From Planctomycetota bacterium (lineage in GTDB: Bacteria; Planctomycetota; Phycisphaerae; WQYP01), in assembly GCA_021827645.1 (NCBI GenBank), contig JAKAVA010000103.1:22382-86381 (forward strand): DNA of 64,000 bases, read 5' to 3'. A model generated the notes under the pieces. The model saw only the letters and a list, made by a program, of their open reading frames with translations. It ran no database searches and had not been told where the DNA came from. Below, one piece after another: positions 36,702-58,186 of the stretch (its first letter is position 1; each line of letters begins with the position of its first letter). A program made the position numbers and the translations under genes.

Positions 36702-38223
36702 ACATCGGGTCGGTGGCGACTGCGGCAACGCCCATCCGGGTGCCGGTTCGCGGCAACTGGCGAACGCGGGCCGTGATATCGGCTGCCACCTGGGCTACGC
36801 TGGCACTTCGCAGAGCCCCCCCCACCCGCCACATCAGAACGTGGCTGACCTCGATCTGGTGGGATACGCGTTGACAGGCGCTGATGACCGCAGAATGACT
36901 TTTCACGCCGACGATCCGACCGATTTCCGGGTAACTTCTGTGGGCGAGCTCCCGCAGTAAATACATGGCGATGCCGCGGGCGCGGGCACATTCGGCAGTG
37001 CGACACCCGCCCGTAAGCTTGGCGAGTTCCTGCCCCAGATATTCGGCTGTTGCCTGCAGGATCATGTCTACCGAGACCTCTGGTGGAAGTTGATAGCGAT
37101 TTGAATCGACACTCGGCGGCGGGGTTAATCCAGCGGAGGCACTGCCCACGGTCTGACGCATAAGCGTCTGAGTCAATCGCCCCTCCAATTCACGCACATT
37201 GGCTACCGGCTCACGCGCAAGACGGTTAATCACCACCTCGCTGATCGTCCAGCCACGACTTTCGGCGGCCTGCCGAAGTATTGCCGCCTTGGTCTGTGCA
37301 TCGGGTAGATCGATGCGAACCACCATGCCGCTCATCAACCGCGATGCCAGCGCCTCGGAGATATCCGTTACATCCTGGGGAGCACAGTCCGCCGCGAGAA
37401 CGATTTTCCCGCCGGCAGCGATGATCTCATTGAACGTATGCAGAAATTCCTGCTGCGTAGAGGCTTTTCGACTGAAGAAATGGGCATCGTCGACCACCAG
37501 TAGATCGGTGCGGCGCATCCGTCGGCGGAAAAGCCCCATAGTTCCTTTTTTAATATTTTCCATAAATTCATTGGTGAACTGCTCCGCCGTCACGTACCGC
37601 CACGTCCGCTGCGGAAACGACTGCGCCCAGACGCGGCAGATACCCTGAAGCAGGTGGGTCTTACCCAAACCGCAATTGCCGTAGATGAACAGCGGCCCAT
37701 GAATTTTTTCCGGCGATGCGACAAGCATTTTGGCGGCATGCAGGGCCATTCGATTGCCGACTCCGCTGATAAAGCGGCCAAGGGTGAATTGCGGATTCAA
37801 GCGCATGGGACTCGACGGACGCGCGGCCGCAGGCGACTCCCGATGCAGGGGCGCCGCGCGGGTGACGGATGCCGCGGCCCTGCCGGTCGGGGGGATATCC
37901 TGTCCAGCAGCACGAATCTCCACCTGTGTGATGCCCGCGATCGTAAGTGCCGTCCGGCGCAGATCGTCGGTAAAATGCCCTCGTATCCATTGGGCGACGA
38001 ACGCACTGGGCGCGAGCACGGTGAGGGTGCTATTGGCCATTTCAAAGCGCGTCTGCGGACCGAACCACTGCACAAAGCGAATTTCACCGATTCTCTCTGA
38101 TAGTGCGGTTTTGATTTCCGATATGGCATCTGCATGATGTACAAGGTGAGCGGAATGATTCTCAGACGCTGTCGGGGGGGATTCAATAATCGCCTGCACA
38201 AAGGACTCCTTTCCAGATGACAC
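36673..38223 (-). CDS. dnaA: Chromosomal replication initiator protein DnaA
   Basis: NPQFTLGRFISGVGNRMALHAA, LFIYGNCGLGKTHLLQGI, DLLVVDDAHFFSRKASTQQEFLHTFN, C-terminal RGIAMYLLRELAHRSYPEIGRIVGVKSHSAVISACQRV. Confidence 0.95.
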   Translation of the reverse strand: MSSGKESFVQAIIESPPTASENHSAHLVHHADAISEIKTALSERIGEIRFVQWFGPQTRFEMANSTLTVLAPSAFVAQWIRGHFTDDLRRTALTIAGITQVEIRAAGQDIPPTGRAAASVTRAAPLHRESPAAARPSSPMRLNPQFTLGRFISGVGNRMALHAAKMLVASPEKIHGPLFIYGNCGLGKTHLLQGICRVWAQSFPQRTWRYVTAEQFTNEFMENIKKGTMGLFRRRMRRTDLLVVDDAHFFSRKASTQQEFLHTFNEIIAAGGKIVLAADCAPQDVTDISEALASRLMSGMVVRIDLPDAQTKAAILRQAAESRGWTISEVVINRLAREPVANVRELEGRLTQTLMRQTVGSASAGLTPPPSVDSNRYQLPPEVSVDMILQATAEYLGQELAKLTGGCRTAECARARGIAMYLLRELAHRSYPEIGRIVGVKSHSAVISACQRVSHQIEVSHVLMWRVGGALRSASVAQVAADITARVRQLPRTGTRMGVAAVATDPMSNRSRDDTQ

Positions 38224-50602: not shown

Positions 50603-51100
50603 CACCCGGATGAACCGCCCGAACACGTTCTGGACCGACGCCGAGGAGGGTTTGGCTCGAAGTTCCATCTGGTTAATGACGGCACGGGAGTGCCGCTCAC
50701 TTTCCGAGTAACGGGTGGACAGGTTCATGAATCAACGCGGCTGGAGTCCATGGTGGGCCGCTACATCGCCTCAGGTCAACATCGTCGGCGGCGCAAGCCC
50801 CGGAAGTTGGTTGGTGACAAAGGTTACAGTGTGCCGCGAATTTGTGATTGACTCAGGGCGCAGGGGATAGAACCGGTGATACCGCATCGGGACAACGAAC
50901 ATGCACGCCGTGATCCATCCGTGAGATTTGATCGCGGGGCGTATCGCCAACGTCATGTGATTGAGCAGTGCGTCGGCTGGCTCAAGAACTACGCCGGATT
51001 GGCACGCGATTTGAAAAACTGCCGGCGCACGGCCACGGAATGCTGCAGTTCTCCATGATCCGACTTTATCTCAAATTACTGTTTTCTCAGAAAGAGCCCA
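50603..51100 (+). pseudogene. IS5-family transposase remnant (frameshifted)
   Basis: Manual + strand translation: DEPPEHVLDRRRGGFGSKFHLVNDGTGVPLTFRVTGGQVHESTRLESMVGRYIASGQHRRRRKPRKLVGDKGYSVPRICD*, then +frame LRAQGIEPVIPHRDNEHARRDPSVRFDRGAYRQRHVIEQCVGWLKNYAGLARD, then RIGTRFEKLPAHGHGMLQFSMIRLYLKLLF: IS5-type DDE transposase broken by at least two frameshifts. Confidence 0.88.
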
Positions 51101-51174
51101 GGCTCTGGGGCTTAAATTGGTCTGAAAACCGCGTCTACGCTAAAGCCCGGCGTTGACAATGCACCAGTTTCGAT

Positions 51175-53595: not shown

Positions 53596-53781
53596 TTATC
53601 TGTACGGAGGATTGATCGCACACATCGCAACGAGAAAAAGGAGCATGGCGAAAAAGATCACGACAACGGCACCGGCGATGGACAGGACAATAGAAAGGAC
53701 GCGGAGAAGTGGACTGCGCTGGGGATCATCCGGATTGGGATCCCCGTCGTCGGGATCAAAATTTTGGAAATCATCCGTCAT
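53596..53781 (-). CDS. Small acidic single-TM protein
   Basis: MTDDFQNFDPDDGDPNPDDPQRSPLLRVLSIVLSIAGAVVVIFFAMLLFLVAMCAINPPYR; 4-bp overlap with upstream radical SAM gene. Confidence 0.65.
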   Translation of the reverse strand: MTDDFQNFDPDDGDPNPDDPQRSPLLRVLSIVLSIAGAVVVIFFAMLLFLVAMCAINPPYR

Positions 53782-55208
53782 ATCAGCGGCAAGCCCCCCA
53801 CGCGCAATTCGTACCCGGTAGCACGGCGGAGTTCCTCCAATTTTGCACGGCGGTGATCGCGATAAAACAGATTAAACGTGTCAAAGGGAATTAACGTTCC
53901 GTCCGGTTGTGCCATGTGGACGCAACTTCGCTTTACCGACCGGATATCAAAATTCCACGCATCCATAAACTGCATCACGATGATGCGAAACACATTGCGA
54001 TACGACAAGGTGCTCTCCAGCTTGATCTGCGGCAGACAGCAGAGCAACTGCCCCAGCGCCGCACCGGCCGAAGCAGGAGAATGGTTGGTGGAAAAGGTAT
54101 TGTAAACGGCGCGGATCAGATCGGAGTTGCGCTCAAAAGCGATGGTGCTTCCTTCACCTTGAAGCAAAAACTGCGGATCGACAAGGCCCGTGAGTGGTGT
54201 GATCGCATCGCCGAGCTTCAGCGCATAGGCCATCAGAATGCAATCCGGATGGCAGGGGACGGGAATGATGTCGGAGAGACTGAAAGTTCCGGACTGCTCC
54301 GCTATGGCGGACCGTACTTCCGACACCGTCAGGCGACTATGATCAGGGTTTTCGAGCCGGGTTCTGCCGGCAAACTGCACGGGCTGAAATGTCACGCCCC
54401 GGACGCAGGGTTGTTTGAGAGCGAAATCAATCATGGAGCCTATCTGATCGTCGTTTACGCCCCGAGCCACGGTGGCGACCAGGGTGGTGGAGATGTCGAG
54501 GTTATTTAACGTTTCAAGGGCCTTAAGGCGGGACTTGTGGAGGTTAGCGCCTCGCAGGATGTTGAGCGTGCGCGGATCGAGCGAATCAAACTGCAGATAA
54601 ATCTCAAAACCAGGCGCGTAGTCCCTGAGCCGGCGGGCAAAATCCGCATCACCGGCGATTCTCAGGCCGTTGGTATTGACCATCAGGTGCTTGATGGGGC
54701 GCTGGCGGGCGGCGTCGAGAACGGCGAAAAATTCGGGGTGAATGGTCGGCTCTCCCCCGCTGATCTGCACAATATCGGGTTGTCCCTCGTTGCGAACTAC
54801 GGCATCGAGCATCCTGTTGATTTCTTCCAGTGAACGATGCGTCGGTCGCGAGGGGCCCGAATCGGCGTAGCAGACGGGACATTCCAGATTGCAATGATCG
54901 GTGATCTCGACCAGCGCGAGGCAACTGTGCTGCTCATGATCGGGACAGAGCCCGCAATCATAGGGGCAGCCGTAACGAATCGGCGTGTTGAATTGCAGCG
55001 GCATCTGGCCCGGTTTGATGAATGACCGCTGCAGTCGATAAAACGCCGGATCGGTCGAGATGAGCACATTCTGGAATTTATGCTCCGGGCACCATTTGCG
55101 CATGATGACGCGTCCGTCCTGCTGAATGATTTTCGCCTCCACCTTGCGCATGCAGATACCACAGATGCTGGTGGTGATGTCAAGAAATAAATAATCACGA
55201 TCCGGCAT
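53778..55208 (-). CDS. COG1964-type radical SAM protein, tetraether-synthase (Tes)-like
   Basis: CGICMRKVEAKIIQQDGRVIMRKWCPEH; RYGCPYDCGLCPDHEQHSCLALVEITDHCNLECPVCYADSGPSR (auxiliary cluster Cys plus CxxxCxxC SAM motif); ISGGEPTIHPEF. Confidence 0.88.
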   Translation of the reverse strand: MPDRDYLFLDITTSICGICMRKVEAKIIQQDGRVIMRKWCPEHKFQNVLISTDPAFYRLQRSFIKPGQMPLQFNTPIRYGCPYDCGLCPDHEQHSCLALVEITDHCNLECPVCYADSGPSRPTHRSLEEINRMLDAVVRNEGQPDIVQISGGEPTIHPEFFAVLDAARQRPIKHLMVNTNGLRIAGDADFARRLRDYAPGFEIYLQFDSLDPRTLNILRGANLHKSRLKALETLNNLDISTTLVATVARGVNDDQIGSMIDFALKQPCVRGVTFQPVQFAGRTRLENPDHSRLTVSEVRSAIAEQSGTFSLSDIIPVPCHPDCILMAYALKLGDAITPLTGLVDPQFLLQGEGSTIAFERNSDLIRAVYNTFSTNHSPASAGAALGQLLCCLPQIKLESTLSYRNVFRIIVMQFMDAWNFDIRSVKRSCVHMAQPDGTLIPFDTFNLFYRDHRRAKLEELRRATGYELRVGGLPLI

Positions 55209-55211
55209 ATG

Positions 55212-55998
55212 TCAGACCGCCGCCTGCGGCACCGGGGCCGCATCGCGAAGGATCAATACGCGCCTGCTTACAAGCCAGTAGCTGCAGTAAACCGCAAGCA
55301 GGAATGCCAGCCACTGCACGGCGGTAAGGCCGAACCAGGTGATCGGGCGCGGTTTCAGGAAGTCGATCGCGAGCCGATAGAATCCGTAGCCGGCGATGAA
55401 CAGACGAAATCGAGCACCCGGAGGCGACAGCTTGGGAAGACGGGCGAGGACGACGCCGAATATTATTAAAAACAGGATATCGTAAAGTTGCACCGGTTGG
55501 CGGGGCACGCCATCACCGAAGTTGACGCCCCAGGGAAGGTGCGTCGGCAGGCCGCAGGTGCCGTCCCTGAGCCCGGTCAGGAAACAACCGATCCGTCCGA
55601 TGCCCATGCCGCACATGACCGGGAAAACCATCGCATCACCGGTTGAGTGATTGATATTAAGTAATTTTTTCCCCAGTTCCACGCCTATCCAACCTCCGAG
55701 GAGCCCCCCCCACGATCTCTTGGCCTCCGTGGATAAGCATCCAGAGAGGATGCTGGCGCAACAGCACTGCGGCCTGCCAGGGGCTTTGCGCCCAGGCCAT
55801 GGTGCGGCTGCCGATGATTGCCCCGACAAAAAGAAATGCGATCAGCCAAAAATTCTTTTCCGTGCCGATGGGAGAGCTTTGCCCGCGGAAGCGGTTCATG
55901 ACATACCAGATGATGCCGACCAGAAACGCCGTCCCTTCCGCGACGGAATGGGCCGGCAGCGCATAACCGAAGAGGTGAAAGGTGACCGGGAAGTGCAT
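55212..55998 (-). CDS. Lgt-like membrane protein (prolipoprotein diacylglyceryl transferase family), interrupted by frameshift at a G8 tract
   Basis: N-term MHFPVTFHLFGYALPAHSVAEGTAFLVGIIWYVMNRF...HGGQEIVGG and C-term LLGGWIGVELGKKLLNINHSTGDAMVFPVMCGMGIGRIGCFLTGLRDGTCGLPTHLPWGVNFGDGVPRQPVQLYDILF lie in different frames joined at 55704-55711. Confidence 0.82.
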
Positions 55999-56204: not shown

Positions 56205-56798
56205 CTAAGGTGGGAACAGCAGGCCCGTGAGAAGGTGAACATTTGTGGATGGAATCTGCTGGCGGACAACTGATATGTCATCGCAAGTTGAAATATTGTC
56301 CGCGGCCCGTGCCAGATTGCAGCATTCGTTGCCGAGAATATCGGTGGCATAATCCATGCCACCAGACCTGGAGAATTCTCGCTGCATTTCGCAGGCGAGG
56401 GCGTCCTTGAATTCTCGGGCTCCCGGGCCGTCGTTTGAGGTCAGCCTACGCAGGTGCGCCAGAGCCCAGGCGTCAAAGGAGGGGTTTGTGAGGGCAATAC
56501 TGATTTTCTGGCGATCGGCAAGCGCGATTGCCTTCAAAAGCATTTTCGATTCCGAATTCTCAACGTCGATCACACACCACCGTTGGCGATATTTTCCCGG
56601 TCCCTCCTCAGAAGCCATTTCCACTACCCTCAATGGGCTGCCTCCATCGGCGCAAATAATTGTGAATTTGAATTCATCCGCCCCACCACGTCGCTTATAG
56701 AGACCGTATAGGCGCCGAAAATAATAATCTTCCAAGTACCCCTCGCAAACTATCAGCACGGGGGCTCGGAAGTTTTGACGTTTGTTGATCCTTTTCAC
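56205..56798 (-). CDS. RloB-like protein (AbiLii-like)
   Basis: VLIVCEGYLEDYYFRRLYGL ... WCVIDVENSESK ... SIALTNPSFDAWALAHLRRL matches the CEG..YF / D.D / SNPxFExWLLxH layout of RloB. Confidence 0.82.
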   Translation of the reverse strand: MKRINKRQNFRAPVLIVCEGYLEDYYFRRLYGLYKRRGGADEFKFTIICADGGSPLRVVEMASEEGPGKYRQRWCVIDVENSESKMLLKAIALADRQKISIALTNPSFDAWALAHLRRLTSNDGPGAREFKDALACEMQREFSRSGGMDYATDILGNECCNLARAADNISTCDDISVVRQQIPSTNVHLLTGLLFPP

Positions 56799-58186
56799 GG
56801 CTTGGATGTTTCCTCGGCGGAGGTATCGGCGTCGTCGGATGTAGCACCACTGCTATCGTACGGCACGCCCGCAAGATATGGACCAAAATCCGCGATTGCA
56901 CCATATGCCCCGGAGAGGTAATTGCGTTCAAACGCCTCGGTGCTGCGCGGGGCGTTTTTTCCGCGGAAGTCCGCGAGGCAAAAGAGCCGGGTTTCACCGG
57001 CGGGTGTTTTCTCCGTAAACCATATCTGATCTTTCCGCAGGAGACGGGGAGCAAGAAGCTGAGAATAGTGCGTGGAGAATATAAGCTGGGCAGCGTGGTT
57101 GTGCTTCGGATTCTGGAACCACGTTATCAGGCGTTGCAAGAGGAGCGGGTGGATATTTGCGCCGAGTTCGTCAACGATCACCGTCAGACCTTTTTGTGCA
57201 GCACGGGCGAAAATACAGAATAACACCGCAAACAATTGTGTGCCGAACGATTCCTCGCCCCAGTCAAACTCAACATCGCGCCCCTGGGCCGATTTGTGTA
57301 ATGACCTGACTGGCCTGCGCGTGTTTGCCTCAACAAATTGGCGGGCGATCTGCCGGGCATTGTCTCCATGGGTCGGTCGAAGTTGTTCCTCGATTGCCGC
57401 GACCTGCTCGTCGGACGGCGGCGGGGCTTGGGGGATGCGGATGTTTTCGATCCCAATATCTGCATCCCGCAAAAAAGCCTGAAGTTGTTGGGTCAGCGGC
57501 ACATCCTCGTTGATGAGGCGGGCGAGATGGGTACTTTGGTCAGTCTGCAGCGGTGAAAAGTGTAGAAATAACGAGCGGGCGGTTATGAGCTCGTAGATAT
57601 CGCGCAGCACCGGCACGTTGATGTTGGCTCCGCTCGACAATACCAGTGAAGTTTCGCGCGTGAACTTTCTGATCTGATCACATGCGATGGGTTCGAAATC
57701 GGTCTTATGGTGAAATTCCACGGTCGTACGGTTGGCGGCGTCAGTCTGCCTGGTAAAAATTGGACGCTGCCGATCGGACGGCAGTTCTTCGATAAGTTTT
57801 TCCTCCGCGATTCGTTGCGGCAACGCCGAAAAAGTGTACCGAAAGACGCGTTCACTTGAGGATGGTAAAACGATCTCAAATCGGGTTGGCTTAGCTTCCC
57901 ACGATTCGGAGAGGCGGTGCGGCACGATGCCCGGAATCAGATTGCCTGGGAATATGACCGCTGCCGAGTGCCGGATTATGTTAACGAATACCTCGCCAGC
58001 CATCAGAAAATTGCTTTTGCCCGAGGCGTTATGGCCGAAAATGGCGGCCACCCGGACCGTCTGCGGAAAACCGGGGAGGGCGGGGATGAGGTTCTCGGTT
58101 TTTTTTCGTTCCTTACCCTTGATAAGTGAAAGGGTCTGCGCCTCGCCGAAGGACCGGAAGTTTTCGATGGTGAATTCATAGATCAT
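56795..58186 (-). CDS. AAA-family ATPase (RloA/AbiLi-like)
   Basis: MIYEFTIENFRSFGEAQTLSLIK; FGHNASGKSNFLMAG (Walker A); LTVIVDELGANIHPLLLQRLITWF; AQLIFSTHYSQLLAPRLLRKDQIWFTEK. Confidence 0.88.
   Translation of the reverse strand: MIYEFTIENFRSFGEAQTLSLIKGKERKKTENLIPALPGFPQTVRVAAIFGHNASGKSNFLMAGEVFVNIIRHSAAVIFPGNLIPGIVPHRLSESWEAKPTRFEIVLPSSSERVFRYTFSALPQRIAEEKLIEELPSDRQRPIFTRQTDAANRTTVEFHHKTDFEPIACDQIRKFTRETSLVLSSGANINVPVLRDIYELITARSLFLHFSPLQTDQSTHLARLINEDVPLTQQLQAFLRDADIGIENIRIPQAPPPSDEQVAAIEEQLRPTHGDNARQIARQFVEANTRRPVRSLHKSAQGRDVEFDWGEESFGTQLFAVLFCIFARAAQKGLTVIVDELGANIHPLLLQRLITWFQNPKHNHAAQLIFSTHYSQLLAPRLLRKDQIWFTEKTPAGETRLFCLADFRGKNAPRSTEAFERNYLSGAYGAIADFGPYLAGVPYDSSGATSDDADTSAEETSKP

Follow-up and report, generated by a model that had tools for sequence, protein, structure and literature searches.

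The three genes at positions 53596–55998 of the window (the whole 64,000-nt stretch of DNA that was analysed) are one copy of a widespread and strongly conserved three-part membrane module, consisting of an Lgt-like membrane protein, a Tes-like radical SAM enzyme and a small membrane protein with a conserved cysteine in its C-terminal tail. Lgt (prolipoprotein diacylglyceryl transferase) attaches lipid anchors to proteins, and Tes (tetraether lipid synthase) couples lipid tails in archaea through a C–C bond. The pairing of the Lgt-like and radical SAM genes exceeds chance, as seen in their co-occurrence, their fusion and their correlated divergence. Judged by sequence, the components belong to known superfamilies but fall outside Tes, TrsS and canonical Lgt, and the three genes together look like an undescribed protein–lipid modification system; no description of this three-gene set was found in the papers searched. 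The best explanation for the whole, which we hold tentatively, is that the Lgt-like protein would lipidate the tail cysteine and the radical enzyme would alter the lipid.

To our knowledge, bacterial homologues of archaeal Tes have no confirmed role to date, and Lgt paralogues with the Y26H/N146C substitutions have no assigned substrate. The module ties these two groups of proteins together and offers a candidate substrate within the same operon. Because it is found in culturable genera (Bacillus, Paenibacillus, Brevibacillus, Dyella and cyanobacteria), both questions are directly testable. If the lipidation mechanism is true, the small proteins would be a new C-terminal, membrane-cysteine type of bacterial lipoprotein, and a radical step would join protein lipidation.

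The operon and its frameshifted Lgt-like gene

The operon has the following features.

55212–55998, minus strand: gene for the Lgt-like membrane protein (PF01790), broken; the frame from 55998 encodes the N-terminal part, and a second frame, which ends at 55212, the C-terminal part
55704–55711, minus strand: G8 run (C8 on the plus strand) joining the two Lgt-like frames, with 1 base too many for an open frame
53778–55208, minus strand: Tes-like radical SAM enzyme, 476 aa, intact
53596–53781, minus strand: small membrane protein, 61 aa, intact, with an acidic N-terminal tail and a single TM helix

The original prediction described a tightly packed three-gene operon ending in a small acidic TM protein with a 4-bp overlap. 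The packing, the radical SAM gene and the small gene were as described: 3 bp separate the Lgt-like stop from the radical SAM start, and the small ORF shares 4 bp with the radical SAM gene at its stop. The interval 55998–55212, however, is not a single open gene but is frameshifted; its 787 bp are not divisible by 3, and the first frame stops after 113 codons. Pfam LGT recognizes the second frame (55829–55212, 67.9 bits) and not the N-terminal frame.

Relatives of the window copy have intact Lgt-like genes and also encode the GKTIVGGLLGG stretch, with a longest G run there of at most 6. Therefore, the G8 run is private to the window genome, and conserved poly-G phase variation at this site is ruled out. 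With a single assembly to go by, sequencing error, slippage and recent decay are all candidate sources of the frameshift. Another C8 run, at window positions 36816–36823, falls within a DnaA-like reading frame without disrupting it, so not every long G/C run in the assembly is broken.

Because its Lgt-like gene is frameshifted, the window copy of the module may be inactive. We give slightly less than even weight to the reading that this copy is decaying and without function in its host genome, a reading that concerns the window only and is compatible with any reading of the family. The frameshift coincides in one gene with the loss of an otherwise invariant His (in the RHPxQLYE motif, Gln replaces the His found in 27 of 27 aligned relatives) and of a nearly invariant Lys (replaced by Gln as well), and the module is absent from the sampled genomes of the same genus. 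Against decay, the other two genes of the module are intact and encode every expected cysteine, and a metagenome assembly with a single wrong base in its G8 run would also show such a frameshift.

The assembly containing the window (G000:C71; 3.3 Mb, 93% complete) has a separate canonical Lgt elsewhere, on contig C36 (178.6 bits), and a housekeeping Lgt identity for the Lgt-like gene was rejected on this basis. Just upstream of the module (56205–58186, minus strand), an RloB-like gene (65.8 bits) overlaps an AAA_21 ATPase gene (78 bits); the two resemble an RloA/RloB-type defence pair. At 50690–51156 on the plus strand, short overlapping ORFs in separate frames resemble, by eye only, pieces of an IS5-type transposase.

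The Lgt-like and radical SAM genes are conserved as a pair

Conserved co-occurrence across genomes had been set beforehand as a test of the prediction, and it was observed. Within the class, the radical SAM clade is found in 14 of 298 genomes, with identities of 54–66% apart from the window copy. Strong matches to the Lgt-like profile are found in 16 of 296 class genomes, namely all 14 with the radical SAM clade and two more (G098 and G115) whose matches both lie on short contigs. A scan of an 85,462-species collection yielded 80 loci from about a dozen phyla, including Bacillota, Cyanobacteriota, Pseudomonadota, Acidobacteriota, Planctomycetota, Verrucomicrobiota, Spirochaetota, Omnitrophota and Bacteroidota. 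An Lgt-like gene is present at 75 of the 80 loci and lies immediately upstream of the radical SAM gene at 66, where counts across the loci are not phylogenetically independent and many come from Paenibacillus. Two of the five loci without an Lgt-like gene (L097 and L101) have the radical SAM gene no more than 140 bp from the start of the locus.

At three loci (L044, L045 and L046), the Lgt-like and radical SAM parts form a single polypeptide. The predicted structure of the L044 fusion (pLDDT 82, pTM 0.70) has two parts that match Tes and E. coli Lgt, the latter with a TM score to 5azb of 0.56 by target length. The divergence of the Lgt-like proteins is correlated with that of their radical SAM partners (r = 0.88, compared to a permutation maximum of 0.32).

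A deeper radical SAM group, at about 35% identity, is likewise paired with Lgt-like genes at L144–L148. On plasmids of Mycobacterium branderi and M. avium (L141 and L162), an Lgt-family gene and two small genes (tail-Cys or hypothetical) form one run with a distantly related radical SAM gene (about 33% identity); the plasmid Lgt is annotated only as a 'prolipoprotein diacylglyceryl transferase family protein'.

The radical SAM enzyme resembles Tes and forms its own clade

The window radical SAM protein carries the Pfam domains PF04055 and HMPTM zinc ribbon PF23545. The cysteine layout that had been read from its sequence (CX2C...CPEH, CPYDCGLCPDH and CNLECPVC) is present in full in the 53778–55208 ORF. 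Its metal residues comprise a rubredoxin-like site (C16/C19/C40/H43), an N-terminal cluster (C81/C85/C88/H91) and the radical SAM cluster (C106/C110/C113), and four C-terminal cysteines (C319/C390/C391/C429) are invariant in 27 members. The sole strong relative of solved structure is Tes, or GDGT-MAS, of M. jannaschii (MJ0619, PDB 7TOL/7TOM; profile search E = 3.6e-85), which has the same domain order. Its sites are a rubredoxin-like C2-C-H site, an N-terminal cluster with C3 and His, the radical SAM motif CX3CX2C and a C-terminal cluster with a labile Met439; the ligands of the first three map to invariant residues of the window family (PMC9433317). An AlphaFold model of the enzyme (36 sequences, pLDDT 84.5, pTM 0.86) matches 7tol with TM scores of 0.81/0.78, while all next matches are below 0.4 by query length. 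The proposed structural comparison matched the enzyme to Tes and the L044 fusion to both Tes and E. coli Lgt, and by sequence and predicted fold the enzyme is nearest to Tes rather than to peptide- or RNA-modifying families.

The similarity does not extend to membership. TrsS (NF045646), a radical SAM (seleno)protein family, is the best-scoring NCBIfam model at 331.7 bits, below its cut-off of 490, followed by Tes (NF045702) at 301 bits, below its cut-off of 450; the TrsS model gives a Bacillus member 324.7 bits, again below 490. A true Tes member from the same class (L157) scores 570.7 bits with NF045702. The window clade has a support of 100/99 and is separate from the group containing L157. 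Moreover, the C-terminal cluster region differs from that of Tes: the cysteine aligned with Tes C338 is not invariant, 19 of 27 members have Met at the Met439 position, Tyr459 is replaced by Ile in 26 members and by Met in one, and an invariant adjacent Cys-Cys pair (C390-C391) is added. In Tes, Tyr459 is strictly conserved among archaeal homologues and yet inessential for activity, and the C-terminal cluster donates the sulfur of the S–C intermediate (PMC9433317). As this is the region that differs, the reaction of the window family may not match that of Tes. The family also differs from Tes in being paired with an Lgt-like partner and from TrsS in its surroundings, since a related plasmid gene with a similar score adjoins a methyltransferase and CcdA, which the window family does not. 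Membership in either family was rejected on cut-offs, clade and residues.

No true TrsS members were found in 199 genomes of the phylum, and the tree accordingly lacks a TrsS member. The two Lgt-paired radical SAM groups are apart in a quick tree and lie on one side of a weakly supported branch (73/71) in a careful tree from which two long-branch rows and one duplicate were left out. With this branch support, a single origin of the Lgt/radical SAM pairing is neither shown nor rejected.

The Lgt-like protein is a non-canonical member of its superfamily

Pfam LGT recognizes the relatives of the Lgt-like protein with 77.5–124.8 bits, and we place the protein, from its sequence and predicted fold, in the Lgt superfamily as a non-canonical member. 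The protein is a second copy beside the canonical Lgt of its genome. Compared to E. coli Lgt (PDB 5AZB/5AZC), R143 is kept in 27 of 27 aligned relatives and R239 in 26, whereas Y26 is replaced by His in 26, H103 by Val in 24 and N146 by Cys in 26. The window copy retains the R143 motif (GRIGCF) and the R239 position, with H in place of Y26 and C in place of N146. We take R143 and R239, which are among the essential residues of Lgt, to be the arginines that hold phosphatidylglycerol. With these two kept and the other three positions replaced, donor binding is plausibly retained and acceptor chemistry altered. The essential residues of E. coli Lgt include Y26, H103 and N146 (PMC13251419, PMC4728403). 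The same Y26H/N146C substitutions were noted in MSMEG_5408, a distant Lgt with presumed low activity and no assigned partner (PMC13251419).

The small proteins share a C-terminal cysteine

The original prediction treated the third gene as an accessory; in fact, it bears the most informative conserved feature of the module. The window small protein ends in ..FLVAMCAINPPYR, which holds the conserved tail cysteine. Among the small proteins scanned, Pfam returned no family above cut-off, except a B-box on one N-terminal part. An iterated profile identified 92 small-protein stretches in the collected loci, 88% of them with Cys in one late column. With 12 more from the window and loci, all 104 tails have a cysteine within the last 45 residues, at a median of 9 residues from the end; the residue at position −2 from the cysteine is Gly or Ala in 72%, and there are 0.5 K/R per tail. 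A classical lipobox ([LVI][ASTVI][GAS]C) was rejected, as only 5 of the 104 tails fit it strictly.

Because a profile can favour its own building material, two tests were run without it. A cysteine within the last 16 residues was found in 46 of 49 TM ORFs directly downstream of the radical SAM gene, compared to 21 of 112 control TM ORFs from the same loci. When any ORF flanking the module was searched for a helix followed by a cysteine near its end, 53 of 80 modules had one at a hydrophobicity threshold of 1.2 (6 of 272 shifted control windows), 44 at 1.5 (5 of 272) and 18 at 1.9 (2 of 272). The threshold was relaxed from 1.9 after the first result had been seen, and the excess holds at all three. 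A recognisable tail-Cys gene nearby was absent at about 18 of the 80 loci.

The gene varies in position, copy number and N-terminal sequence. Seven Paenibacillaceae loci without a downstream copy have a small gene upstream of the Lgt-like gene, with tails of the form ..[TA][IL]C[GA].. and, in those read, a Cys-rich, B-box-like N-terminus. At L144–L147, from the same class, proteins combining a Zn ribbon with a TM helix (with no good Pfam family) lie upstream of the deeper pairs and have tails ..GGC.. or ..GAC..; in L148, a probable version of 40 aa ends in FLAGMCGLSFR and closely resembles the window tail. One betaproteobacterial locus (L081) is an exception, with its cysteine in mid-helix (..SLCGG..). 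Five copies are present in L035 and six, the maximum, in L074. At L160 (6041–8898; G086:C104), an Lgt-like gene is followed by four tandem tail-Cys genes, the 15 kb examined contain no radical SAM gene, and the same genome has a fused Lgt-like/radical SAM form elsewhere. Altogether, the proteins begin with an acidic or Pro-rich tail, a Zn ribbon or a B-box, whereas the TM-Cys tail is constant. From this pattern, the multiple copies and the independence from the radical SAM gene, we infer that the cysteine is a target of the Lgt-like enzyme.

Modification of a C-terminal cysteine by Lgt has a precedent in a hypothesis for the myxosortase system, whose C-terminal membrane tags MYXO-CTERM and JDVT-CTERM carry an invariant cysteine that is presumed to receive a lipid; Lgt is named there as the foremost candidate for this step (PMC11980579). 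In those tags, the cysteine precedes the helix, the cytoplasmic end is Arg-rich and a CPBP protease cleaves; in the small tail-Cys proteins, the cysteine follows the helix, the tails are poor in K/R and no protease is linked.

A proposed mechanism and its alternatives

In the proposed mechanism, the small protein would have a cytosolic N-terminus and an outward-running last helix, so that its near-invariant cysteine would lie at the outer face of the membrane; charge placement is the sole basis for this topology. The Lgt-like protein would then transfer a diacylglyceryl group to the tail cysteine. We consider these two steps somewhat probable. A Tes-like radical SAM enzyme on the cytosolic side would make an acyl-chain radical, and the lipid would be modified through a C–C bond, a C–S bond or another change at an unactivated carbon, either before or after diacylglyceryl transfer. 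Whether the substrate of the radical enzyme would be a lipid is evenly balanced in our judgement, and tail-to-tail coupling as such seems unlikely. These steps would yield low amounts of a small membrane protein that carries an unusual lipid at its C-terminus. A more specific version is rather doubtful; in it, the Lgt paralogue would lipidate the membrane-embedded C-terminal cysteine, after which the Tes-type enzyme would remodel the attached lipid at an unactivated carbon and might turn it into a membrane-spanning, protein-bound form.

Lgt acts at the outer membrane face and its C-terminus lies in the cytosol, in keeping with a radical SAM domain that would be cytosolic in the fusions. Even so, lipidation carries a difficulty, as a lipid on an outward cysteine must be reached by the cytosolic radical enzyme. 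Tes draws entire lipid tails into its own pocket, which would make such reach possible. Further points count against lipidation: three essential residues of E. coli Lgt (Y26, H103 and N146) are changed, few tails have a strict lipobox and some loci lack a tail-Cys gene. Bulk membrane-spanning lipids are not known from Bacillus, Paenibacillus or cyanobacteria, and a low-abundance, protein-bound lipid would fit these hosts.

A lipid or lipoprotein modification module, as first proposed, remains the best general reading, with the correction that the Lgt-like gene encodes a non-canonical Lgt and, in the window, carries a frameshift; the suggested C–C coupling into membrane-spanning lipids is no more than a hypothesis. 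Bulk lipid synthesis is less favoured than lipidation and appears improbable. Here, the radical enzyme would couple two lipids through their acyl chains to give membrane-spanning or diabolic-type lipids, while the Lgt-like protein would shuttle diacylglycerol from one head group to another and the small protein would act as a scaffold. This reading draws on Tes being the only characterised close relative, on related Tes-like genes of the same class that adjoin FabF, FabA-like, FabG and ACP genes, and on the proposal that bacterial Tes homologues synthesize brGDGTs (PMC8941075, PMC11868695). The separate clade, the score below the Tes cut-off and the differing Tyr459 position and C-terminal cysteines speak against it, as does the host range, for which bulk membrane-spanning lipids are not known, and it leaves the tail cysteine and the multiple small genes unexplained. 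The bacterial membrane-spanning lipid synthase Mss is likewise a radical SAM enzyme, assigned to the coupling of fatty acids and described as distinct from Tes homologues (PMC11868695).

The small genes themselves are precursor-like, being multi-copy and variable with a constant C-terminal part, and the peptide maturases SuiB and SkfB are distant structural relatives of the radical enzyme. The enzyme could then modify the small protein itself, for example by a thioether at the cysteine, while the Lgt-like protein adds or anchors a lipid to give a modified lipopeptide. We regard this as the least likely of the alternatives, for the lipid enzyme Tes is closest in fold, far ahead of the peptide maturases, and the cysteine follows a hydrophobic helix, likely across the membrane from the radical enzyme. 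Alternatively, the replaced Y26, H103 and N146, together with fusions that fix a one-to-one partnership, could indicate an Lgt-like protein without transferase activity, serving as an anchor in the membrane and supplying the radical enzyme with lipids, with the small protein as an assembly subunit whose cysteine is structural or redox-active. Such a complex is also improbable: R143 and R239 are kept, and a purely structural role would not lead one to expect a lone cysteine near the C-terminus of dissimilar proteins, or a locus such as L160, where four tail-Cys genes accompany an Lgt-like gene with no radical SAM gene close by.

Related Tes-like genes in the same class

Loci L047–L052, from the same class (for example, L050:3482–14514), contain two divergent Tes-like radical SAM genes and a third radical SAM gene, together with two ketoacyl synthases, FabA-like, FabG and ACP genes and a membrane protein. 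The cluster looks like a dedicated fatty-acid or lipid pathway. Its membrane protein has 39% identity to the protein encoded directly upstream of the L044 fusion gene.
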